The position numbers were made by a program, and so were the translations under genes. From the NCBI RefSeq assembly GCF_001613065.1, contig NZ_BDBQ01000002.1, positions 62,001 to 126,000 of the forward strand: a stretch of DNA of 64,000 nucleotides, in the 5' to 3' direction. The notes beneath the pieces were generated by a model. The model searched no databases. It was not told where the DNA came from and saw only the letters and a program-made list of their open reading frames with translations. Below, piece after piece: positions 1,305-64,000 of this stretch; position 1 is the stretch's first letter; every line of letters starts with the position of its first letter. Source of the DNA: Nocardia miyunensis NBRC 108239. GTDB taxonomy: Bacteria > Actinomycetota > Actinomycetes > Mycobacteriales > Mycobacteriaceae.

Positions 1305-1760
1305 TCACATGGCCAGGCCGTGTGCCACGAGCGCGTCCATGACGTCCTGGGGATGCGCGCCCAGATCCCAGCGGCCGAAGATGAGCAGCCGGTCCTCACC
1401 GTCGTGCTCGACGTCGATCTCCAGATTGGGCGATTTGCGCCCGAGCCGGCGGAAACTCACCACCCGGGCCCGCAGGATCCGCTCCCGGGGATACTCCACC
1501 GCGCCGAGCAGCCCGCGCACGACCAGCACAGGGCGTTGACCGGGCACGATGGTGATCCGCGGACGCTGCCGCAGCCCGAGTGCGGCCAGCCCGAGCAGCA
1601 GGATCGCCGCCAGTCCGACCAGCAGGCGGCTCGGCGCGTCGCCGGTGAACACGGCGGCCGCGGCCAGCACGATTCCGCCCACGGCGGCCGTCACGAGGGC
1701 CATGGGCGGTGTGGACCATTGCAGGCGGGACACCGGTTCGGATGCGGTCACGATCCCCAC
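1305..1760 (-). CDS. Membrane-anchored PH-domain (bPH type) protein, Rv0010c-like
   Basis: A 151-residue protein with a GTG start and a good GAGGAGCGA Shine-Dalgarno. Two hydrophobic segments lie near residues 20-38 and 46-62, followed by a soluble beta-rich domain (ITIVPGQRPVLVVRGLLG onward) typical of bacterial PH-like domains. The Mycobacterium counterpart in this slot, between ppiA and crgA, is an uncharacterised conserved membrane protein of similar size. The function is not established; the syntenic position suggests a link to cell envelope or division proteins. It ends 12 bases from the end of the rhomboid gene, on the opposite strand. Confidence 0.78.
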   Translation of the reverse strand: MGIVTASEPVSRLQWSTPPMALVTAAVGGIVLAAAAVFTGDAPSRLLVGLAAILLLGLAALGLRQRPRITIVPGQRPVLVVRGLLGAVEYPRERILRARVVSFRRLGRKSPNLEIDVEHDGEDRLLIFGRWDLGAHPQDVMDALVAHGLAM

Positions 1761-1772
1761 TCGCTCCTCAAG

Positions 1773-1793
1773 TTGTCCACAGGCTCATCCACA
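1773..1793. promoter_or_regulatory. Two adjacent DnaA-box-like 9-mers
   Basis: TTGTCCACA (1773-1781), the actinobacterial consensus DnaA box, is followed three bases later by TCATCCACA (1785-1793), one mismatch from TTATCCACA. They lie in the 76-base gap upstream of the PH-domain protein gene and downstream of crgA. A short direct repeat ACAGGTGT (1791-1798 and 1810-1817) overlaps the second box. The binding role is an inference. Confidence 0.5.
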
Positions 1794-1836: not shown

Positions 1837-2100
1837 TCAGCGCCACCGCATCGTCATGACCAGGCCGACGACCATGAGTCCGAACCCGATCAGGAAGTTC
1901 CAGGCGTTGAGGTTCGCCATCCAGGTCAGCTTGTCGCTGGCCAGGTAGTACACGATCAGCCAGGCCAGCCCGGCCAGCATGAAGCCGAGCATGATGCTGA
2001 CGTACCAGACCGAGGAGGGGCCGCCCTTGATCTTGACCGGGGTGCGACTGGCGGGGTTGATCGTATAATCGGTCTTCTTGCGGACCTTCGACTTGGGCAT
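1837..2100 (-). CDS. crgA: Cell division protein CrgA
   Basis: An 87-residue protein, the usual length for CrgA. A basic N-terminus ([14 protein letters not shown]) is followed by two transmembrane segments, near residues 31-52 and 63-85, joined by a short loop ending in [14 protein letters not shown]. CrgA is an actinobacterial divisome/elongasome coordinator that contacts FtsZ, FtsI and FtsQ in mycobacteria. Its position just upstream of the trpG/pknB block is conserved across the group. Confidence 0.93.
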
Positions 2101-54529: not shown

Positions 54530-56484
54530 CTGAGCACGTCGAGAAACTCGAGTTTCAGGCCGAGACCCATCAGCTTCTGGAATTGATGATCCACTCGGTC
54601 TACTCGAACAAGGACACGTTCCTGCGGGAACTGATCTCCAACGCCTCCGATGCCCTGGACAAGCTGCGCCTGCTGTCCTATCAGGACAAGGATCTCGAGG
54701 TCGATACCTCCGATCTGCACATCGAGCTGGAGGTCGACAAGGACAACCGGATCCTGACCGTCCGCGACAACGGCATCGGCATGTCGCGCGCCGAGGTGGT
54801 GGATCTGATCGGCACGCTGGCCAAGTCCGGCACCGCCCAGCTGCGCAAACAGCTGCTCGAGGCCAAGCCCGATCAGGCCGCCGAGGAGCTGATCGGTCAG
54901 TTCGGCATCGGCTTCTATTCGACGTTCATGGTGGCCGACAAGGTCACCCTGACCACCCGCAAGGCCGGCGAATCCGAGGCGACCCGCTGGGAGTCCGAGG
55001 CTGGTTCGTCGGGTTACACCATCGAGACCCTGGAGTCCGCGCCGCAGGGTTCGTCGGTGTCGCTGCATCTGAAGCCCGCCGACGAGGACGATCACCTCTT
55101 CGATTACACGCAGGAGTGGAAGCTCCGCGAGATCGTCAAGAAGTACTCCGACTTCATCGCCTGGCCGATCCGCATGCAGGTCGAGCGGACCGTCACCGAG
55201 GGTGAGGGCGAGGAAAAAGAAGAGAAGACGATCCTCGAGGACCAGACGCTCAATTCGCAGAAGGCGCTGTGGACGCGCCCGCGCGGCGAGGTCTCCGACG
55301 AGGAGTACAAGGAGTTCTACAAGCACGTCTCGCACGCCTGGGACGATCCGCTGGAGATCATCCCGTTCAAGGCCGAGGGCACCTTCGAATATCAAGCGCT
55401 GCTGTTCATTCCGTCGCACGCGCCGTTCGATCTGTTCATGCGCGAACATCAGCGCGGTGTGCAGCTGTACGTGCGGCGGGTGTTCATCATGGACAACTGC
55501 GAAGAGTTGATGCCGGAGTACCTGCGCTTCGTCAAGGGCGTGGTCGACGCACAGGACCTGTCACTCAACGTCTCCCGCGAAATCCTGCAGCAGGACCGGC
55601 AGATCCAGGCGATCCGCAAACGTCTTGTGCGCAAGGTGCTTTCGACGGTCAAGGACTTGCAGCAGGCCGAGGACAAAACCTCGTACGAGACGTTCTGGAC
55701 CGAGTTCGGGCGAGTTCTCAAGGAGGGCTTGCTGTCCGACTTCGACAACCGCGAAACCCTCTTGCAGGTCTCGTCTTTCGCGTCCACGCATTCGGATGAC
55801 AAGCCGACCACCCTCGCGGACTACGTCTCGCGCATGGCCGAGGGCCAGGACAAGATCTACTACATGACCGGCGAATCGCGTCGGCAGATCGAATCCTCGC
55901 CGCATATGGAGGCATTCAAGGCCAAGGGCCTCGAGGTGCTGGTGCTCACCGATCCGGTGGACGAGATGTGGGTCGGCCAGGTCACCGAATTCGACGGCAA
56001 GGCGTTCCAGTCCATCGCCAAGGGCGAGGTCGACCTGGAGTCCGAGGAGGAGAAGAAGGCCTCCGAGCAGCTGCGCGAACAGCAGGACAAGGATTTCGGC
56101 GAGGTGTGCACCTGGTTGCAGCAGGCCCTGGGCGAGAGCGTCAAGCAGGTCCGGCTCAGCTCGCGTCTGACCACCTCGCCCGCGTGCCTGGTCGGGGACG
56201 TCTTCGATTTCACCCCGCAGCTCGAGCGCATGTATCGCGCGTCGGGGCAGGCGCTGCCGGAATCCAAGCGGATCCTGGAGCTGAACCCGACCCATCCGCT
56301 GGTCACCGGGCTGCGCGAGGCATATCTGAAGGACAAGGAGTCCGCCGACGCCGGTGACTCCGCCGAACTCACCGAGACCGCCGAATTGCTGTACGGCACA
56401 GCGGTTCTCGCCGAGGGAGGGGAGTTGAAGGACCCGGCGCACTTCGCCGGAATCCTCACCGATCGGCTGACCCGCACGCTGTAG
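54526..56484 (+). CDS. htpG: Molecular chaperone HtpG (bacterial Hsp90)
   Basis: A 652-residue protein of full length. The N-terminal GHKL ATPase has ELISNASDALDKLR with the catalytic Glu, DNGIGMS and GQFGIGFYSTFMVADKV. The middle domain includes RRVFIMDNCEELMPEYLRFVKGVVD and DLSLNVSREILQQ, and the C-terminal dimerisation domain follows. It is an ATP-driven chaperone for stressed proteins. It starts with a GTG that overlaps the stop of the nuclease gene (GTGA). Confidence 0.97.
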   Translation: MTEHVEKLEFQAETHQLLELMIHSVYSNKDTFLRELISNASDALDKLRLLSYQDKDLEVDTSDLHIELEVDKDNRILTVRDNGIGMSRAEVVDLIGTLAKSGTAQLRKQLLEAKPDQAAEELIGQFGIGFYSTFMVADKVTLTTRKAGESEATRWESEAGSSGYTIETLESAPQGSSVSLHLKPADEDDHLFDYTQEWKLREIVKKYSDFIAWPIRMQVERTVTEGEGEEKEEKTILEDQTLNSQKALWTRPRGEVSDEEYKEFYKHVSHAWDDPLEIIPFKAEGTFEYQALLFIPSHAPFDLFMREHQRGVQLYVRRVFIMDNCEELMPEYLRFVKGVVDAQDLSLNVSREILQQDRQIQAIRKRLVRKVLSTVKDLQQAEDKTSYETFWTEFGRVLKEGLLSDFDNRETLLQVSSFASTHSDDKPTTLADYVSRMAEGQDKIYYMTGESRRQIESSPHMEAFKAKGLEVLVLTDPVDEMWVGQVTEFDGKAFQSIAKGEVDLESEEEKKASEQLREQQDKDFGEVCTWLQQALGESVKQVRLSSRLTTSPACLVGDVFDFTPQLERMYRASGQALPESKRILELNPTHPLVTGLREAYLKDKESADAGDSAELTETAELLYGTAVLAEGGELKDPAHFAGILTDRLTRTL

Positions 56485-56757
56485 ATCCGCTGCTGTGCAC
56501 GGGTTCCGTCGCGCCGGCGGACCCGTGCACCCGGATAGTGATCCAGGTCACTGTCTCGGGTCCCGGGAACTCGGCTCGCGACCAGGCTGTTATACATATT
56601 GGTCGCAGTTTTTGTGTGCTCGTGTTTCAACATGCTCGCGCGGAACATTGTGCGGGCGTCGCTTCTCCTTGCCGGGCAAGTAGTAGTCGCCGTCTCGATG
56701 CGACCACTCGGTCACCGCGGTCCGCGGCGATCGGACAACACCTCGTCAGGAGAAACA
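56485..56757 (+). promoter_or_regulatory. Upstream region and leader of the cold-shock gene
   Basis: TTATACAT at about 56590 resembles a -10 element. If used, it gives a leader of roughly 160 nt before the cold-shock ORF. Long leaders are typical of cspA mRNAs, where folding changes with temperature. No strong -35 was seen. The segment 56580-56640 is AT-richer than its surroundings. Confidence 0.4.
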
Positions 56758-56958
56758 ATGGTTCAGGGAACCGTCAAGTGGTTCAACTCGGAGAAGGGCT
56801 ACGGCTTCATCTCCCACGACGGCGGCGCCGACGTGTTCGTGCACTACTCGGAGATCGAGGGCAACGGTTACCGTGCGCTCGAGGAGGGGCAGAACGTCAC
56901 CTTCGAGATCACCCAGGGCAAGAAGGGCCCGCAGGCTTCCGGCGTCCGCGCCCAGTAG
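56758..56958 (+). CDS. Cold-shock protein (CspA family)
   Basis: A 66-residue single cold-shock domain, with start [17 protein letters not shown] after CAGGAGAAACA. RNA-binding motifs are KGYGFI (RNP1) and VFVHYS (RNP2); the C-terminus is [10 protein letters not shown]. It binds single-stranded nucleic acid and melts RNA structure. It is monocistronic, with a long leader and a double hairpin directly after the stop codon. Confidence 0.97.
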
Positions 56959-57029
56959 TCGTCACGCGCGGAACCTACCGCGCGCGTGACGACCTCAGGC
57001 CCGCACCGATTACGGTGCGGGCCTGAGCT
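56958..57029. terminator. Double hairpin terminator between the csp and SDR genes
   Basis: The first stem is 14 bp (56958-56971 with 56978-56991). The second is a perfect 15-bp stem (56992-57006 with 57011-57025, loop ATTA) followed by CTTTT. They serve the plus-strand csp gene and probably the convergent SDR gene. Confidence 0.92.
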
Positions 57030-57044
57030 TTTCGATTCGGCAGC

Positions 57045-57812
57045 TCAGCGCGGCGCCATGCGCAGCGCGCCGTCCATGCGGAAGGTCTCGCCGTTGAGGT
57101 AGTCGTGCTCGGTGATGTACTGCGCCAGCTGCGCGTACTCGTCCGGGCGGCCGAGGCGCGAGGGGAACGGCACACCGGCCTCGAGGCCCTTGCGGTACTC
57201 CTCGGTGACACCGGCCAGCATCGGGGTGTCGATGATGCCGGGAGCGATCGTGTTCACCCGGATGCCGAACTGCGCCAGGTCGCGCGCGGCCGGAACGGTC
57301 ATTCCGGCGACGCCGCCCTTGGACGCGGAGTAGGCGATCTGGCCGATCTGCCCCTCGAACGCCGCCACCGACGCGGTGTTGATCACCACGCCGCGCTGAC
57401 CGTACTCGTCGAGCGGCTCGGTCTTGGAGATCGCGTCGGCGGCCACGCGCATCACGTTGAACGTGCCCAGCAGGTTCACCGTGATGACCGTGCGGAAGAG
57501 TTCCAGATCGTGTGGGCCGTTCTTGGACAGAATCCGGCCCGCCCAGCCGACCCCGGCGCAGTTGACCACCACGCGCAGCGGGACGCCGGACTCGACCACC
57601 GTCGCGACCGACGCGGTGACCTCGTCGCCACTGGTCACATCCGTCGGAAGCAGGATGACACCGGCGGGAACGCTGTCTCCGGCCCGTTCGATCGACTGCT
57701 GCAGGTCGAATCCGAATACGGTCGCGCCCTGGTCGGCGAACCGCTTGGCGGTCGCGGCGCCCAGGCCGGACGCAGCGCCGGTGATGATTGCGGCAGAGCC
57801 CGAAATCTCCAC
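57045..57812 (-). CDS. Short-chain dehydrogenase, 3-hydroxyacyl-CoA dehydrogenase-like
   Basis: A 255-residue SDR: TGAASGLGAATAKRF (11-25) for cofactor binding with an Asp after strand 2 (FGFDLQQ, favouring NAD), NCAGVG, INTASVAAFEGQ for the catalytic Ser and YSASKGG for Tyr/Lys. The EPLDEYGQRGVVINTASVAAFEGQ-like region is characteristic of type II/HSD10-like 3-hydroxyacyl-CoA dehydrogenases of fatty acid oxidation. It is divergent from the TetR gene, which may control it. Confidence 0.9.
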   Translation of the reverse strand: MEISGSAAIITGAASGLGAATAKRFADQGATVFGFDLQQSIERAGDSVPAGVILLPTDVTSGDEVTASVATVVESGVPLRVVVNCAGVGWAGRILSKNGPHDLELFRTVITVNLLGTFNVMRVAADAISKTEPLDEYGQRGVVINTASVAAFEGQIGQIAYSASKGGVAGMTVPAARDLAQFGIRVNTIAPGIIDTPMLAGVTEEYRKGLEAGVPFPSRLGRPDEYAQLAQYITEHDYLNGETFRMDGALRMAPR

Positions 57813-57954
57813 GGTGTTTGGTCCTCTCGTTGATGACGGCCCATGGCTGGCCTTCCGTCAAGACAGTAACCGCCTTACCCACAGCCGTGTCTTCGGCCTC
57901 CGCTCCGCCGGTCCGGAATTGCCCCGGCGCGCAAGGCCACAACCTCGAACTCGG

Positions 57955-58183
57955 CCAGTTCGCTCACCTCCGCGATCACCGGCTTCGAGGTCGCGTCCCG
58001 GGGCGGTCCCATGGACAACCCAGGCCCGCCCGCCCCGGACAACGCCAGCTCCGAGGTCGCGGCCCTGGTCGATTCTGGACTGACGGAGCGGGGGAGCGAA
58101 GCGGAGGCAGTAGGACACAGAATCGGCCCTTCGGGGGCCGAGGCCCGCCGGAGCGAAGCGTAGGCCAAAATTGCAGTATGTCG
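57955..58183 (+). repeat. Dispersed intergenic repeat, copy B
   Basis: It shares ordered blocks with 52484-52740, including about 100 bases of high identity (58014-58108 against 52624-52720). In this copy the GGAGCGAAGCG unit occurs twice (58093 and 58150), separated by about 50 extra bases with a CGGCCCTTCGGGGGCCG hairpin. It ends at the start codon of the TetR gene, as copy A ends just before the nuclease gene. It lies in the 365-base divergent gap with no other gene. Confidence 0.75.
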
Positions 58184-58837
58184 GATTCGGCTGTGCCCAG
58201 CCGTCAGTTGCCCCGGGGCCGTCACGGCCTGCCACGGGAGACGGTGGTCGCCTCGCAGCGTGACCGGATCCTGAGCGCGATGGCGCAGGCGATGACCGAA
58301 AACGGTTATGTCGGAACGTCTGTCGCGGCGATCATCAAACTTGCCGGAGTGTCGCGGGAGACGTTCTACGAGCAATTCCGTTCCAAGGAGGACTGTTTCG
58401 AGGCCGCCTACGAGCGCGCCGCGCAACTCCTGCTCGAACGGATCGTCGAGGCGACCGCGACGTTGCAGAATGCACCGGCCGCCCGTGAGCAGCGGATCGA
58501 GGCGATGCTCGGCGCTTATCTGGGCGGCCTGGCCGCCGAACCGGCCGACGCCCGGCTGTTCCTCATCGAGGTATACGCGGTCGGACCCGAGGCCATCGCC
58601 CGACGCGGCGAACTACAGGAATCCTTCGCCGCCATGGTCGCCGACATCCTCGAAGCCCGCACCGCCGAACAATATTTCGCCTGCCAGACCTTGGTCGCGG
58701 CGGTCAGCGCGATGGTCACCGCGCGGGTCGCCGCGGACGATCTGGACGGATTGCGCGCGTTGCGGGAGCCGCTGCTCGAGCTGTTACGCCGCAGCGGCGA
58801 TCTGTTCGGATCTGCCGAGCAGATCCCTTCCCGCTGA
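58178..58837 (+). CDS. TetR family transcriptional regulator
   Basis: A 219-residue protein. The N-terminal HTH is at about residues 28-72: RDRILSAMAQAMTENGYVGTSVAAIIKLAGVSRETFYEQFRSKEDCF. The ligand domain is all-helical. Such proteins usually repress a neighbouring operon; the divergent SDR gene is the most likely target. Its start codon lies at the edge of the dispersed repeat, so the repeat contributes its ribosome site region. Confidence 0.92.
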   Translation: MSDSAVPSRQLPRGRHGLPRETVVASQRDRILSAMAQAMTENGYVGTSVAAIIKLAGVSRETFYEQFRSKEDCFEAAYERAAQLLLERIVEATATLQNAPAAREQRIEAMLGAYLGGLAAEPADARLFLIEVYAVGPEAIARRGELQESFAAMVADILEARTAEQYFACQTLVAAVSAMVTARVAADDLDGLRALREPLLELLRRSGDLFGSAEQIPSR

Positions 58838-58858
58838 TCCGCGGGGGCGACCGGAACT

Positions 58859-59590
58859 TCAGTGGCTGTCGACCGGCTCGTCTTCCAGTTCCGCGCGCGG
58901 CGCCGACGCGACCGAACGGCGGCGCAGCGCCCACAGCGCCGCACCCGCCACCGCGGGGGCCAGCAGGGATATCGCGTATTCGGTCACCCGGCCCAGGCCG
59001 GGGGCGAAGGCCGAGAGCAGGGTGGCCGCGCCGATGTACAGGAACAGCAGGCCCGAGCCGATGGCGATGGCGCGTTCGGGGACGTGCTTGCCGAGCAGGA
59101 TGCCCAGGGCGATGGCCCCGGCGCCGGCGGCGACCATGCCCGCGACCGAGCCGAGCCACACCGCGACCCAGTTGTGGCTCGAGGCCAGGGCGATGATCGC
59201 GAACATGGTGCGGTCACCCAGTTCGGCCAGCAGGAATGCGGACAGGACCATGAAGAACACCCGCCACCGGGAGCGCGCGCCGGGATCCTTCTCGGCGACC
59301 TCGGTGTCCTCGTCGGTGTCGGTGCGGACCGTCTCACCCAGGGTCCACAGGCCGACCGCGAGCAGCACGACCGCGGTGATCGCGGCGATCACACTGGTCG
59401 GCAGTGCCGCACCCAGGAAATGTCCGACGCCGACGGCGATCAGGTTGACCGCGATGCTCGCGGTGGTGATCCCGGCGAGCACGACCCACCACCGATAGCG
59501 CAGCGCGAAGGTCAAGGCCATCAGCTGCGATTTGTCGCCGAGTTCGGCGAGGAACAGCACGCCGAAACTCAGCAATATCGTGGCGATCAT
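58859..59590 (-). CDS. TMEM165/GDT1 (UPF0016) family divalent cation transporter
   Basis: A 243-residue protein with two homologous three-helix halves, each with the family motif: E16-LGDK and E123-LGDR. A charged loop (about 88-108) separates them. Bacterial members such as MneA export Mn2+. The leader of this gene carries a yybP-ykoY manganese riboswitch, which supports the assignment to manganese homeostasis. GGGAG precedes the ATG at 59590. Confidence 0.93.
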   Translation of the reverse strand: MIATILLSFGVLFLAELGDKSQLMALTFALRYRWWVVLAGITTASIAVNLIAVGVGHFLGAALPTSVIAAITAVVLLAVGLWTLGETVRTDTDEDTEVAEKDPGARSRWRVFFMVLSAFLLAELGDRTMFAIIALASSHNWVAVWLGSVAGMVAAGAGAIALGILLGKHVPERAIAIGSGLLFLYIGAATLLSAFAPGLGRVTEYAISLLAPAVAGAALWALRRRSVASAPRAELEDEPVDSH

Positions 59591-59605
59591 CGTCTACGCT
59601 CCCAG

Positions 59606-59797
59606 GTCTGCGGCCTGTCGGCCGCAGACGGGGCGTCTCCGGCCGACAACGCACCCGAAATTTTCGGTCGGTTGGTTATCGGCCGAAGGTCTCGCCCACC
59701 GGGCGGGCGGATCCTGGTCCGCCGCGACGCCGGTTCACGTGGCCGGACCCGAGAGGATCAGTATGTCGACCACGCGATTGGGGGCTACTCCCCTTCG
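59606..59797 (-). promoter_or_regulatory. yybP-ykoY manganese riboswitch with expression platform
   Basis: On the minus strand the leader reads CGAAGGGGAGTAG (from 59797), GTCGACATACT (59770-59760) and GGGCGAGACCTTCG (ending 59684), the conserved L1, junction and L3 elements; CGAAGG pairs with CCTTCG as P1. Downstream, CGGCCGATAAC (59685-59675) can pair with GTTGTCGGCCG (59650-59640), and a perfect 10-bp hairpin (59606-59629) stands just before the GGGAG ribosome site. With no T-run, translational control is likely. TAGGCT at 59807-59817 may be the -10. Confidence 0.85.
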
Positions 59798-59903
59798 CTG
59801 TTACCAAGCCTAGCCTACGTTGCGTGCGATGCCAACCGCGTGTAATCGAAATCGCAATGCGCGCAATAAGTTTGGCGATCCTTCCGGGAGATTTCGGGTA
59901 CCC

Positions 59904-60431
59904 TCAAGCTGCGATCAACATGGCCAGAACCGCGGTATCGGGATCGCTGATCGGATCCACTCCCACCCGGCTGACCATCGAGGTCACCGTGCCGTCCGAT
60001 TCGGCCTCCACCCAGGCCGCGCGATGCTGCAAGCCCAGATGCGGCACTCCGGGCAGCAGCACGCAGCCCGAGGCCGCCCCACTGCATTCGGGCAGGGACG
60101 GGCGTGTTTCCGAGGGCGGATGCAGCATCATCAGCGCGGGCGGCACATGCCGGGCGAACCGTCCGGGCTCGAGCGCCTGCTCGCCCAGTACCGGGCCCTC
60201 GGCCAGAACCAGGCCGACCGTGCCGGGTTCGGGGTCGTCGGGTAGATCCTCGCGAGCGCCGAAAACCGTGGTCGTGGTGAGAATGCCCGGCAGCGTCGCC
60301 ACCCGTACGGCCAGGGCCAGCAGTTGCGCCCACTCCTTCGTGGTGTCCGGCCAGCGGCCTCCGATGAGAAATCCCCGCAGTGATCCGTGCGCCTGGAATG
60401 GCGTGACTCGAACCGGATCGTTCGTGTGCAT
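59904..60431 (-). CDS. Hypothetical protein
   Basis: A 175-residue protein. The start MHTNDPVRVTPFQAHG has GGGAGG six bases upstream. No signal peptide or membrane helix is obvious. Segments such as GSLRGFLIGGRWPDTTKEWAQLL, VLAEGPVLGEQALEPGRFARHVPP and EAESDGTVTSMVSRVGVDPISDPDTAVLAML suggest a soluble alpha/beta domain. I do not recognise the family. It lies between the riboswitch promoter and the sodA terminator. Confidence 0.7.
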   Translation of the reverse strand: MHTNDPVRVTPFQAHGSLRGFLIGGRWPDTTKEWAQLLALAVRVATLPGILTTTTVFGAREDLPDDPEPGTVGLVLAEGPVLGEQALEPGRFARHVPPALMMLHPPSETRPSLPECSGAASGCVLLPGVPHLGLQHRAAWVEAESDGTVTSMVSRVGVDPISDPDTAVLAMLIAA

Positions 60432-60575
60432 CGTGGCCTCCCGAATCGGTACCGGGATGGCTGCCGAGATAGCGAGCCGTCCTGAAGTTGTGAGTACCCG
60501 AGAATGGCCCGAACAATGTCTGGCACACAAGTACCAGAGAGTGCTAAAGCGCAGGTAACAGGCCTGAAACATGAA

Positions 60576-60609
60576 ACGGGCCCGCGAACCGTACGGTTCG
60601 CGGGCCCGT
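60576..60609. terminator. Terminator hairpin after sodA
   Basis: A perfect 34-bp palindrome, ACGGGCCCGCGAACCGT followed by its reverse complement. On the minus strand it is followed by a T-rich stretch (TTTCATGTTTC). It lies 35 bases past the sodA stop. Confidence 0.88.
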
Positions 60610-60643
60610 CAGCCGAGTGCGCCGGAGTTCCGGCGCGGGCGGA

Positions 60644-61267
60644 TCAGCCGAAGACCAGACCCTTGCCCTGGGCGGTCGCCCGAGCGAAACGCTCCTGCAC
60701 GTCGGCCCAGTTGACCACGTTCCAGAACGCCTTCACGTAGTCGGCCTTGACGTTCTTGTACTGCAGGTAGAACGCGTGCTCCCACATGTCGACCTGCAGC
60801 AGCGGGATGATGCCCAGCGGCACGTTGGCCTGCTGGTCGTACAGCTGGAAGGTCAGCAGCTTCTGGCCCAGCTGGTCGTAGCCCAGCACGGCCCAGCCCG
60901 AGCCCTGCAGACCGTTGGCCGCGGCGGTGAACTGCGCGCGGAACTTGTCGAACGAGCCGAACTGGTCGTCGATGGCCGCGGCCAGATCGCCGACCGGCTT
61001 GTCGCCGCCGTTCGGGGACAGGTTCTTCCACCAGATGGTGTGGTTGACGTGCCCACCCAGGTGGAAGGCCAGGTTCTTCTCGTTCAGGAAGATCGCGCCG
61101 TGGTCGCCGGACTCACGAGCCGCTTCCAGCTTCTCGAGTGCGGTGTTGGCGCCGGCGACATAAGCGGCGTGGTGCTTGGAATGGTGGAGTTCGTTGATCT
61201 GCCCGGAGATGTGCGGCTCCAGGGCGCCGTAGTCGTAATCCAGATCTGGCAGCGTGTACTCAGCCAC
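60644..61267 (-). CDS. sodA: Superoxide dismutase, Fe/Mn family
   Basis: A 207-residue protein from the GTG at 61267 ([14 protein letters not shown]), with AGGGAC upstream. Metal ligands are H28, H76, D160 and H164 ([11 protein letters not shown]), at the same positions as in mycobacterial SodA. The sequence closely resembles nocardial SodA, which is exported without a classical signal peptide. It converts superoxide to peroxide and oxygen. Fe versus Mn preference cannot be read reliably. It is monocistronic, with a strong terminator. Confidence 0.97.
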
Positions 61268-61415
61268 GATGTCCCTTCCGTCGTATGTCGTCTGCACCCG
61301 GACTTGCCGAGCGCATCAACCATCATTCGTACACCCGCTCCTGTGCAACCGGCGGTCGTGCCCCCGGAATTCCTGATGAACGGAAGATTCCCGATGATCG
61401 GAATCTTCTGCGGCC

Positions 61416-62027
61416 CTACATCGGTGGCGCGACGTCCGGCAACATGGTGCGCGGATCGCAGGCGTCGTGTGCCTTCCACCAGCGCGCACCGCCGTCGATG
61501 AACTCCGCGAGCACGATCTCGGCTCCCTCGGGGCTGGTGATCGAGACGTCCTCGAACCAGATCCGCACATCCAGTTCGCGCGGATCGATGCCCTCCTGCT
61601 GGGAGAACTCCAGCAGATGGGTGCCCGGCTCGGCGCTGACGATGGTGTCGAAGCTCAGCAGCTCGCGCCACAGCGCCCAGCCGCTGTCGTCGGCGTCGAT
61701 GAAATCCCAGCCGTGCAGGGCGCCGCCGCCGAACCCGTCGATGGCCTCGCCGAGGGTTTCCAGGGTGAGCGGGAAGACCTGCGGTTCGGCATCGTCCCAG
61801 CGCTGCATGCGCAGCGAGGCGGCCACTCGGCTGACGCCGGTCAGGGTCAGGTGCACCCGGCGATCCGTGGGCGGCGGCCCATCGGTGGGTAGGGTCAGCG
61901 CTTCGAGTTCGATCCGAACTCGTGCGGCCCCGACGTCGGGCACGAGGCCCAGACAGGTGCCTTCGGCAAGCGCTGTGTTGAGTCCGGCCGTATCCAATCC
62001 GTCGAGTAACCCGCGGGTCGCGTCCAT
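61416..62027 (-). CDS. Hypothetical protein
   Basis: A 203-residue protein from the ATG at 62027 (MDATRGLLDGLDTAG); an ATG at 62057 is an alternative. It is acidic, soluble, without signal peptide. The middle has VHLTLTGVSRVAASLRMQRWDD and GWDFIDADDSGWALWRELLSFD, the end LDVRIWFEDVSITSPEGAEIVLAEF, suggesting a beta-rich fold. No family recognised. It lies upstream of sodA on the same strand, 148 bases away. Confidence 0.68.
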   Translation of the reverse strand: MDATRGLLDGLDTAGLNTALAEGTCLGLVPDVGAARVRIELEALTLPTDGPPPTDRRVHLTLTGVSRVAASLRMQRWDDAEPQVFPLTLETLGEAIDGFGGGALHGWDFIDADDSGWALWRELLSFDTIVSAEPGTHLLEFSQQEGIDPRELDVRIWFEDVSITSPEGAEIVLAEFIDGGARWWKAHDACDPRTMLPDVAPPM

Positions 62028-62319
62028 GGCGTCCAGGCTACCGATCACCGTGGACATGTCGGGGATTTCGCTTCGCGCTAGGTGTCGCCCGGGATTTTTC
62101 GAAACCGAGGGAACCGAACGCCCGCGCGCTCCGTCCAAGTAGTTGTCGGGATCCCCCGCCGCAGTTCCGCCAGCCGGTGCTGCAGCCCGCGGCGGACCCC
62201 GTAGAAGGCGGTGGGCGACCGCTCCGGCATGAGGAGGGGAGTTTCGGATCGGTCGCCCACATGCGCTTCTTACTGGTCAGGGGGTTCCGAATCGTTCGAT
62301 CGCCGCAACACTCTCGACC

Positions 62320-62368
62320 TGTGGATGAGGCTGTGGATATGTGGATAACTCGGCGCAAGTTATCCACA
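62320..62368. promoter_or_regulatory. Cluster of four DnaA-box-like 9-mers
   Basis: TGTGGATGA (62320-62328), TGTGGATAT (62332-62340), TGTGGATAA (62340-62348) and TTATCCACA (62360-62368). The last two are perfect consensus boxes in inverted orientation, 11 bases apart. The cluster sits 39 bases upstream of the rhodanese GTG, in a gene-free gap (62028-62406) that otherwise shows no recognisable gene. Confidence 0.65.
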
Positions 62369-62406
62369 CTCTCCGTCGGCGGGGCTGCCGTGGCAGGATC
62401 GAACAC

Positions 62407-62763
62407 GTGACGAGCCCCGAAATTCCATCGGTGCCGGTGGATGCCGTACCTGCCGAATTCGATGATGCCGGGACCACACCGGCCATGCTGCTCGACGTCC
62501 GGGAGGACGACGAGTGGCAGCTCGGGCACGCGCCGGGCGCCGTGCACATCCCCATGGCCGACATTCCCGCGCGTGCCGAGGAACTGGACTATGACCGGGA
62601 GATCTACGTCGTCTGCCGCCAGGGCGGGCGATCGCTGCAGGTCGTGCGGTATCTGACGCATATCGGATTCGATGCGGTCAACGTCTCCGGCGGCATGGTG
62701 GCCTGGCAGAAGGCAGGTCGCCCGCTGGCCGCCGAGGGCGATCATGAGGCGAAGATCTACTGA
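62407..62763 (+). CDS. Rhodanese-like domain protein
   Basis: A 118-residue single-domain rhodanese. The GTG start has AGGA eight bases upstream. The active-site loop is C70-RQGGR in YVVCRQGGRSLQVV, with LLDVREDDEWQLGHAPGAVHIPM before and NVSGGMVAWQKAGRPL after it. It probably transfers sulfane sulfur; the acceptor is unknown. Its promoter region contains the DnaA-box cluster. Sixteen bases separate it from the DUF4328 gene. Confidence 0.93.
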   Translation: MTSPEIPSVPVDAVPAEFDDAGTTPAMLLDVREDDEWQLGHAPGAVHIPMADIPARAEELDYDREIYVVCRQGGRSLQVVRYLTHIGFDAVNVSGGMVAWQKAGRPLAAEGDHEAKIY

Positions 62764-62779
62764 TGAGAGGGGGACAGGC

Positions 62780-63907
62780 ATGGCGGTGAGTACGGTCGTG
62801 CAGCCCTGTGCCCGCTGCGGTGCGCGATGGGCGGTGCAGGGCAGACCCATGCACTGGTGCCCGCGCTGCCACGGCGTGTTGCTGTCCCCGGCTCCGGTCG
62901 ACGCCCCGCCGCAGCGCCGCAACTACCGCTGGGTCGCCCGGCCTCCCGGACATCGTCGGCCGCGTGACACCCGCTCGTCGTCGGTGGCTGCCGCACCCGT
63001 TCCGACACCCCGCTACACCGAGATTCCGCGCTGGGGCCTGCGCGATCGGCCCGCACAGCCGATCCCGGCTCCCCGTTCGCGGCTGGATCGGCTGACCGAT
63101 CGTCTCGTTCGGCTGCTGACGACCACGGCCGTGCTGTTCATCGCGTCGGCGGCCGCCGAATTCGGGCGGTATCTGCTGCTCATGTGGAACCGGACGCGGT
63201 TGATCGAACCGGTCGTGGTCTACCTGTCCGACTGGTCGGTGCGGGTTTTCGCCGTGCTGGCCCTGGTGTTCGCGCTGTTGAGCGCGGTCGCGCTGGTCGG
63301 CTGGCTGATCGAGGCCCGGCGCCGGGTCTACACCGCCGACGGGCAGCGCGATCCGCGCGGGATGTGGGCGCTGCTGCTGGGTTGTGTCGTTCCGGTGGCG
63401 AATCTGCTCTGGCCGGGGGTGTTCCTGACCGAGCTGGCACGTCGTCACGACGATCCGCGCATGCTGCAGGTCGTGCGGATCTGGTGGGCGGTCTGGGTGG
63501 TCAACGGTGTGATGGCCGTTGTGGCGCTGAGCTTTCGGACAACCGACACGTTGCAGGCCCAGGCCAACGGCGTGATCTTCACCGTCTACACCGATCTGGT
63601 GGCGACGGCGGTCGCGGTGCTGTCGCTCTGGGTGGTGCGGTCGTGCGAGGGGCTGGACCTGCGCGGTCGTCGGCGGCTGCCCAAGCGCTGGGTGGCCACC
63701 GGCGGTCCGGTCGTCCCGGTCATCGAACCGGTGCATCCGGCGAGCGCGGAAGCCGCCGGATCCGGTGGTGCGGATTCCGCCGCGGCCGCGAGCGATTCGT
63801 CCGGTGCGGCAGTTGAGCGCGCAGTCGATCCGGAGGTCGTGCAGGATGTGCGTGCGGAGGCCGTATCGGGTGCGGAATCCGAGCAGGAGGAGGTCATGGC
63901 GAAGTGA
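62780..63907 (+). CDS. DUF4328 domain membrane protein with N-terminal zinc ribbon
   Basis: A 375-residue protein with start MAVSTVVQPCARCGARW. Two CxxC pairs (CARC and CPRC, residues 10-35) form a zinc ribbon. After a Pro/Arg-rich linker come about six hydrophobic helices: LLTTTAVLFIASAAAEF, FAVLALVFALLSAVALVGWLIEA, MWALLLGCVVPVANLLWPGVFL and others. The C-tail is Ala/Glu-rich. The mycobacterial relative (Rv3843c) also sits next to glpQ1. Its TGA overlaps the start of the GDPD gene. Confidence 0.85.
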   Translation: MAVSTVVQPCARCGARWAVQGRPMHWCPRCHGVLLSPAPVDAPPQRRNYRWVARPPGHRRPRDTRSSSVAAAPVPTPRYTEIPRWGLRDRPAQPIPAPRSRLDRLTDRLVRLLTTTAVLFIASAAAEFGRYLLLMWNRTRLIEPVVVYLSDWSVRVFAVLALVFALLSAVALVGWLIEARRRVYTADGQRDPRGMWALLLGCVVPVANLLWPGVFLTELARRHDDPRMLQVVRIWWAVWVVNGVMAVVALSFRTTDTLQAQANGVIFTVYTDLVATAVAVLSLWVVRSCEGLDLRGRRRLPKRWVATGGPVVPVIEPVHPASAEAAGSGGADSAAAASDSSGAAVERAVDPEVVQDVRAEAVSGAESEQEEVMAK

Positions 63908-64000
63908 ACCAGGACAGTCGTGCGCCGTTCGTCGTCGCGCACCGGGGCGCCTCGGCGGCACGTCCGGAACACACTCTCGCCGCATACGAACTCGCCCTGC
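63904..64000 (+). CDS. glpQ1: Glycerophosphodiester phosphodiesterase (3' end outside window)
   Basis: Only 32 codons are present. The GTG start overlaps the DUF4328 stop (GTGA). The visible VVAHRGASAARPEHTLAAYELAL is the N-terminal catalytic motif of GDPD enzymes (HRG with the Pro-Glu-His/Asn-Thr turn). They cleave glycerophosphodiesters to glycerol-3-phosphate and an alcohol. The symbol is by analogy with the mycobacterial neighbour order. Confidence 0.85.
   Translation, partial: MNQDSRAPFVVAHRGASAARPEHTLAAYELAL

Follow-up and report, generated by a model that had tools for sequence, protein, structure and literature searches.

The window analysed here is a 64,000-nucleotide stretch of the Nocardia miyunensis NBRC 108239 genome (contig C2, positions 62001-126000; coordinates without a contig or locus prefix refer to the window). 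It ends in a forward-strand operon whose first gene encodes a rhodanese-domain protein of 118 aa (62407-62763; Pfam PF00581, E 1.2e-18, for the open frame 62341-62760), followed by a DUF4328 protein (62780-63907; Pfam PF14219, E 1.1e-37) and a glycerophosphodiester phosphodiesterase, GDPD (63904-64000, continuing past the window end; Pfam PF03009, E 2.3e-54; 264 aa long in locus L317). The intergenic region in front of the operon is bordered on its other side by a divergent conserved gene on the reverse strand (61416-62057). Of the 80 named Nocardia loci (the best 80 of 185), 79 have this gene, and searches of Pfam and NCBIfam at E ≤ 0.01 returned nothing for it. The sole match to an RNA family in 55000-64000 is cspA at 56646-57028, far below its cut-off. 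Within the intergenic region, four DnaA-like 9-mers lie in 49 bases (62320-62368), two of them perfect and inverted to each other, as the first-pass annotation had it. Box 1 (TCATCCACA, 62320-62328) and box 2 (ATATCCACA, 62332-62340) carry one mismatch each and lie on the reverse strand 12 bp apart, box 1 being the outer and box 2 the middle box of what turns out to be a conserved same-strand array. Box 3, a perfect TTATCCACA on the same strand (62340-62348), follows 8 bp from box 2 and overlaps it by one base, and box 4, also a perfect TTATCCACA, is inverted onto the forward strand (62360-62368).

Several box matches in a short stretch, beyond chance, are what would mark an extra-origin cluster, and this is what is found at 62320-62368: the window holds ten sites within one mismatch of TTATCCACA, four of them in the cluster, and a rough Poisson estimate puts the chance that four sites fall within 49 bp somewhere in the window at ~1e-5. 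Single boxes mean little, since the perfect TTATCCACA, at 37 copies in the genome (10.52 Mb, 208 contigs), is barely enriched over the reversed control word with its 26. Five of these 37 lie on the 128-kb contig C2, two of them in the array, where 0.45 would be expected (P ~1e-4). The first-pass annotation had asked whether a genome-wide count would turn up similar clusters by chance; it did not. The three-core pattern TGTGGATN{0,30}TGTGGATN{0,30}ATCCACA has the array as its sole place in 10.52 Mb (two overlapping readings, counted as one place), and the control gave 0. Two multi-box places elsewhere in the genome, C5:161500 and C31:82874, were considered as origins and rejected, as by eye they lie in Tyr-Pro-Gln-rich reading frames whose codons spell the box. 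Perfect-box runs at L031:9501-9608 and L032:8875-9207 fall in Tyr-Pro-Gln-rich frames and are an artefact of G-Y-P-Q codons, a trap for scans of box density. We also observed a pair of perfect boxes with 18-bp spacing at L033:8320-8346 (C57:74319-74345); the gene downstream of it has an AbiEi antitoxin-like match that is weak and falls short of the Pfam cut-off. Similar pairs spaced by 17-18 bp occur at C39:96710, C51:122640 and C12:39708, with no relative of the AbiEi-like gene found in the surrounding stretch, and such pairs are possibly a second kind of element. A long palindrome at L078:3574-3591 (contig C8) includes a pair of directly abutting TTGTCCACA boxes (GGGGAGTTGTCCACATGTGGACAACTCCCC).

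Conservation upstream of rhodanese orthologues, the other check proposed at the outset, came out in favour of the cluster: of 148 Nocardia genomes, 108 carry a three-box array, each in a single copy (control 0), and in all seven of the 108 that have rhodanese coordinates among the matches listed it lies at this locus. A closer view comes from the best 80 of 185 Nocardia loci, a named set that leans to close relatives and includes a species represented by several strains, so that its counts are not independent. Box rates were taken from 78 of them, after L172, in which no rhodanese gene was found, and L193, whose upstream DNA was too short, were dropped. In these 78 loci, the 450 bp before the rhodanese gene (35.1 kb in all) hold 67 perfect TTATCCACA boxes and the other 658.6 kb hold none; at least one perfect box precedes the rhodanese gene in 62 loci, and boxes within one mismatch of TTRTCCACA number at least two in 58 and at least three in 54. 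Filtering at 75% identity left 40 non-redundant loci of the 62 that have a perfect box; aligned on that box, these 40 give the consensus ACCTGTGGATcAgGTTGTGGATTaTGTGGATAACT. The nine anchor columns are conserved by the selection of loci; the 21 unanchored columns to their left, taken apart, carry 1.48 bits per column, compared with 0.12 and 0.15 in the flanks and at most 0.26 in flank stretches of the same length. A same-strand box lies 21 bp from another in 52 of the 80 named loci (best 80 of 185) and 20 bp in the closest relatives of this strain. The spacing between boxes 2 and 3 is 8 bp here and 9 bp in most relatives. Box 2 commonly reads TAATCCACA in other Nocardia, and the inverted box 4 (at most two mismatches) is found at offset +20 in 14 and at +19 in two of the 40 non-redundant loci. 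The expectation that every lineage would keep the array failed, as 16 of the 78 named loci (best 80 of 185) have no perfect box before the rhodanese gene: 15 of these keep stray two-mismatch matches or none, L191 keeps a degenerate array, and in the N. carnea/testacea and N. alba/salmonicida groups the array is nearly or wholly gone. Genome-wide, the three-box pattern is unmatched in 40 of 148 Nocardia genomes, some of which carry near variants.

The array reaches well beyond the genus. Its core, TGTGGAN6TGTGGAN3TGTGGA (12 + 9 bp), was found in 114 of 201 family genomes and 21 of 31 genera, once in each genome, and the control gave 0. The present genome falls outside the 114, its second gap being one base shorter (12 + 8 bp), and is thus one of the near variants found among the 87 genomes in which the core is unmatched. 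The placement of the cluster in front of the rhodanese/DUF4328/GDPD operon, noted from this one stretch, is borne out across the family, with 109 of the 114 core arrays adjoining a rhodanese or DUF4328 gene. Gene coordinates, taken from the matches listed, were at hand for 94 of the 114, and in 90 of these the array lies 55-251 bp upstream of the rhodanese (82) or DUF4328 (8) gene; among the remaining 20 genomes, DUF4328 is next to the array in 19 and G093 is without a match. Four arrays lie away from the operon: that of G073 near a luciferase-like oxidoreductase frame, that of G027 just after recF and beside dnaN (gene names by eye), and those of G089 and G176 at places where neither rhodanese nor DUF4328 was found. 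G027 (L309) and G176 (L310) both belong to genus g27, in which the 12 + 9 array sits elsewhere than the rhodanese locus and has possibly been relocated. A rhodanese match at E ≤ 1e-15 is present in 163 of the 201 genomes, and DUF4328 is kept without the array in six genomes of genera g31, g28, g18, g14 and g4. Given these absences, in Nocardia and across the family, the array is dispensable, if useful. With both sequence and spacing conserved across species, comparison of the genomes marks the cluster as old and conserved; a chance origin is ruled out by its uniqueness in the genome, its single-copy conservation and the Poisson estimate.

Given this attachment to one set of genes, the array might mainly be a transcriptional operator, through which DnaA would couple the rhodanese-DUF4328-GDPD operon, perhaps engaged in membrane-lipid turnover and sulfur chemistry, to the DnaA level or the replication state. 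The array stays beside the operon in 109 of 114 genomes and remains where the rhodanese gene has been lost and DUF4328 is the next gene; in genus g3 it is absent from 15 of 15 genomes, and DUF4328 from the three of three tested. Such strict attachment also fits regulation in cis and to that extent argues against titration of DnaA as the main role. However, the distance to the gene varies over the 55-251 bp given above, and six of the 90 genomes, all of genus g9, have the array in reversed orientation with respect to the gene, so that no fixed promoter geometry is kept, which speaks for titration. In addition, a crude scan of 62040-62420 for promoters of the sigma-70-like type and for terminators found neither, several clades retain the operon while lacking the array, and at a mycobacterial sister site, Rv0010c-Rv0011c, both flanking genes are unaltered in dnaA mutants, as far as the accessible text of that study goes (PMC7738170). 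We consider it possible, though on the doubtful side, that operon control is what the array is mainly for; as a second role next to titration such control is plausible, and both may hold.

Direct evidence on DnaA binding comes from the mycobacteria. Hicks et al. (2020) applied IDAP-seq with M. tuberculosis DnaA and, in the part of the report available to us, list five regions bound in vitro (oriC, rpmH-dnaA, Rv0010c-Rv0011c, a region upstream of dnaB, and Rv3843c-RVnc0040), with ChIP-seq in M. smegmatis returning the homologues of the same five (PMC7738170). The present genome offers candidate counterparts for the four outside oriC. The perfect box that lies 80 bp before dnaA, at C2:21085, would correspond to the rpmH-dnaA site, and another at C77:7815, ~310 bp before the dnaB open frame, to the dnaB site. 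The window's second box pair (1773-1793, forward strand), with TTGTCCACA at 1773 and TCATCCACA at 1785, lies between crgA (1840-2100, reverse strand) and a PH-domain gene (1314-1748, reverse strand), overlaps none of the matched part of the latter and, judged by gene order, would stand for Rv0010c-Rv0011c. By gene order, the array at 62320-62368 before rhodanese-DUF4328-GDPD would be the counterpart of Rv3843c-RVnc0040. Here we take DUF4328 to be Rv3843c and GDPD to be Rv3842c, which is supported by the same gene order, DUF4328 then GDPD, in seven of seven genomes of genus g23 examined, that GDPD being 76-80% identical to the one here. The boxes indeed lie upstream of DUF4328 and then GDPD, and their assignment to the Rv3843c site draws on the g23 gene order together with these assumed gene identities. 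Genus g23 is taken as Mycobacterium because a 40-bp box palindrome common to six of its genomes lies, in the one locus examined (L138), with crgA on one side and the PH-domain gene on the other, in agreement with the accessible description of the mycobacterial site (PMC7738170); its CrgA matches solved CrgA chains, a match that does not settle the genus.

The correspondence between the sites is close in place and looser in detail. Like the array, the Rv3843c-RVnc0040 site adjoins the DUF4328 gene, followed by GDPD, and the g23 loci have cores at 12 + 9 bp, strict in three of seven and with a first-core mismatch in four. In contrast, the Nocardia array is separated from DUF4328 by the rhodanese gene, which was not found at that place in the seven g23 loci, and the present strain differs by its 12 + 8 spacing and its perfect inverted fourth box. 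The crgA site resembles the array in that its counterpart at 1773-1793 is a 12-bp tandem pair of TTGTCCACA and TCATCCACA, but in the six g23 genomes it is the 40-bp palindrome and not a 12 + 9 array. Between Rv3843c and Rv3844, the M. tuberculosis small RNA MTS2975 is listed in the accessible portion of another report (PMC3207917).

These data also bear on whether 62320-62368 is a DnaA site at all. The TGTGGA core is short and DnaA binding in Nocardia is a prediction, and so the repeats might form a conserved operator of another regulator or a functionless leftover. We regard this as very improbable, given that the perfect TTATCCACA is kept in 62 of 78 named Nocardia loci (best 80 of 185), that the array is single-copy in 114 genomes with a control of 0, and that DnaA binds the matching mycobacterial place in vitro and its homologue in vivo, according to what is accessible of the study (PMC7738170). 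The cluster is thus very probably a real DnaA site, and its conservation, together with the published binding at the matching mycobacterial place, strongly supports the prediction that the boxes in front of the rhodanese/DUF4328/GDPD operon form a working DnaA-binding cluster. The first-pass annotation knew of no description of such a locus in nocardiae. For Nocardia this was not contradicted: the titles and abstract beginnings of the literature found on Nocardia DnaA boxes, Rv3843c and M. smegmatis extra-origin sites describe no such array there. A 2020 study, however, had already reported the counterpart in mycobacteria (PMC7738170). Binding at that counterpart is therefore known, while the family-wide conservation and the architecture appear to be new. 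In the accessible text, the discoverers noted no obvious correspondence of the Rv3843c-RVnc0040 site in other bacterial species (PMC7738170), so that a binding peak they could not relate to other species now becomes a conserved locus. The available text also reports that mutations in dnaA and at the Rv0010c-Rv0011c site raise isoniazid resistance in M. tuberculosis (PMC7738170), and the isoniazid candidate genes of a separate study, again from its accessible part, include dnaA, Rv0010c and Rv3843c (PMC8613195).

The position of the array adds a further element to the argument. The claim that it lies far from any visible origin is misleading; that no dnaA is in view is correct for the window itself, but the contig also carries dnaA (C2:21165-23042), followed by dnaN from C2:23916, and the end of dnaA is ~101 kb from the array. 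In 33 relatives the distance between the locus and dnaA is 72-537 kb (median 143 kb; below 250 kb in 28 of 33), and the locus is on the dnaN side in 31 of the 33 genomes with both coordinates. This set comprises 33 of 36 genomes, including ones without the array, after omission of G175 (no locus coordinate) and of G029 and G148 (wrap-around needed). At ~101 kb from oriC, the locus is copied early, shortly after initiation. Nearness is weak evidence for timing, however, since genes around oriC generally keep their order. The gap between dnaA and dnaN (C2:23043-23915) contains 13 boxes within two mismatches of TTRTCCACA, none of them perfect, where the contig average is 3 per kb. We also considered the array as a second oriC and rejected it: an origin would combine a box cluster with an AT-rich unwinding element, and would be expected here between dnaA and dnaN, and the GC content around the array never falls below 45% (20-base windows, step 10, 62100-62390).

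The reading we prefer, with a probability of about one half, is that of a conserved extra-origin DnaA-binding array whose main role is titration. Beyond the established geometry, uniqueness, conservation and location of the boxes, we infer DnaA binding in Nocardia, its cooperativity and the titration itself. The outer two of the three same-strand boxes (12 + 8 bp here, 12 + 9 in most relatives) would sit about two helical turns apart, and together with the inverted fourth box they could seat several DnaA molecules side by side. Duplicated early, such an array would hold DnaA away from an oriC of weak boxes and so damp early re-initiation. Titration is favoured over operon control by the variable distance and orientation, by the nearness to oriC and by the unaltered genes at the sister site as reported in the accessible text (PMC7738170), and the 13 weak boxes of the oriC gap, none perfect, point the same way. 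To our knowledge, little is understood of the way in which DnaA is prevented from re-firing the origin in mycobacteria and nocardiae, and an element of ~30-50 bp, single-copy where found and present in 21 of the 31 genera sampled, makes this question of DnaA control testable.

How does the array compare with extra-origin systems known from other bacteria? In E. coli, two types of site alter the nucleotide state of DnaA, by reactivation (DARS) or by hydrolysis (datA), and a compact multi-box array of conserved spacing near oriC could be thought to do either. The E. coli DARS1 region (L286) also has three boxes, including a same-strand pair 12 bp apart; we located these boxes in the E. coli record via the DARS1 primer arm, and their assignment to the DARS1 core is our own. 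The order of the DARS1 boxes is > < <, however, with the inverted box facing the tandem pair, whereas that of the array is < < < >, with the inverted box on the other side, and a DARS1 topology was rejected on this ground. E. coli datA shares with the array dense high-affinity boxes in an origin-proximal place, as far as can be told from the accessible descriptions (PMC5295017, PMC4585315), but it consists of five boxes over ~1 kb and depends on IHF (PMC5295017, from its accessible part), compared with four boxes in 49 bp here. Taken together, a role in the nucleotide state of DnaA seems unlikely. Titration by the array would have a likeness in the extra-origin DnaA-box clusters near oriC of B. 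subtilis and Streptomyces, as judged from their available descriptions: these restrain initiation, and their removal is reported to lead to early or untimely initiation (PMC5295017, PMC4585315), the effect in B. subtilis being strong only with six clusters removed (PMC5295017). Their roles, in the same descriptions, rest on deletion data, whereas the array is known from its sequence. It is tempting to speculate, with a little less than even confidence, that the single-copy, position-fixed 12 + 9-bp array is an ancient, dedicated DnaA control locus of the Mycobacteriaceae, standing in for datA or the B. subtilis clusters on a different plan and forming, with the crgA, dnaA and dnaB sites, a four-site network around oriC.
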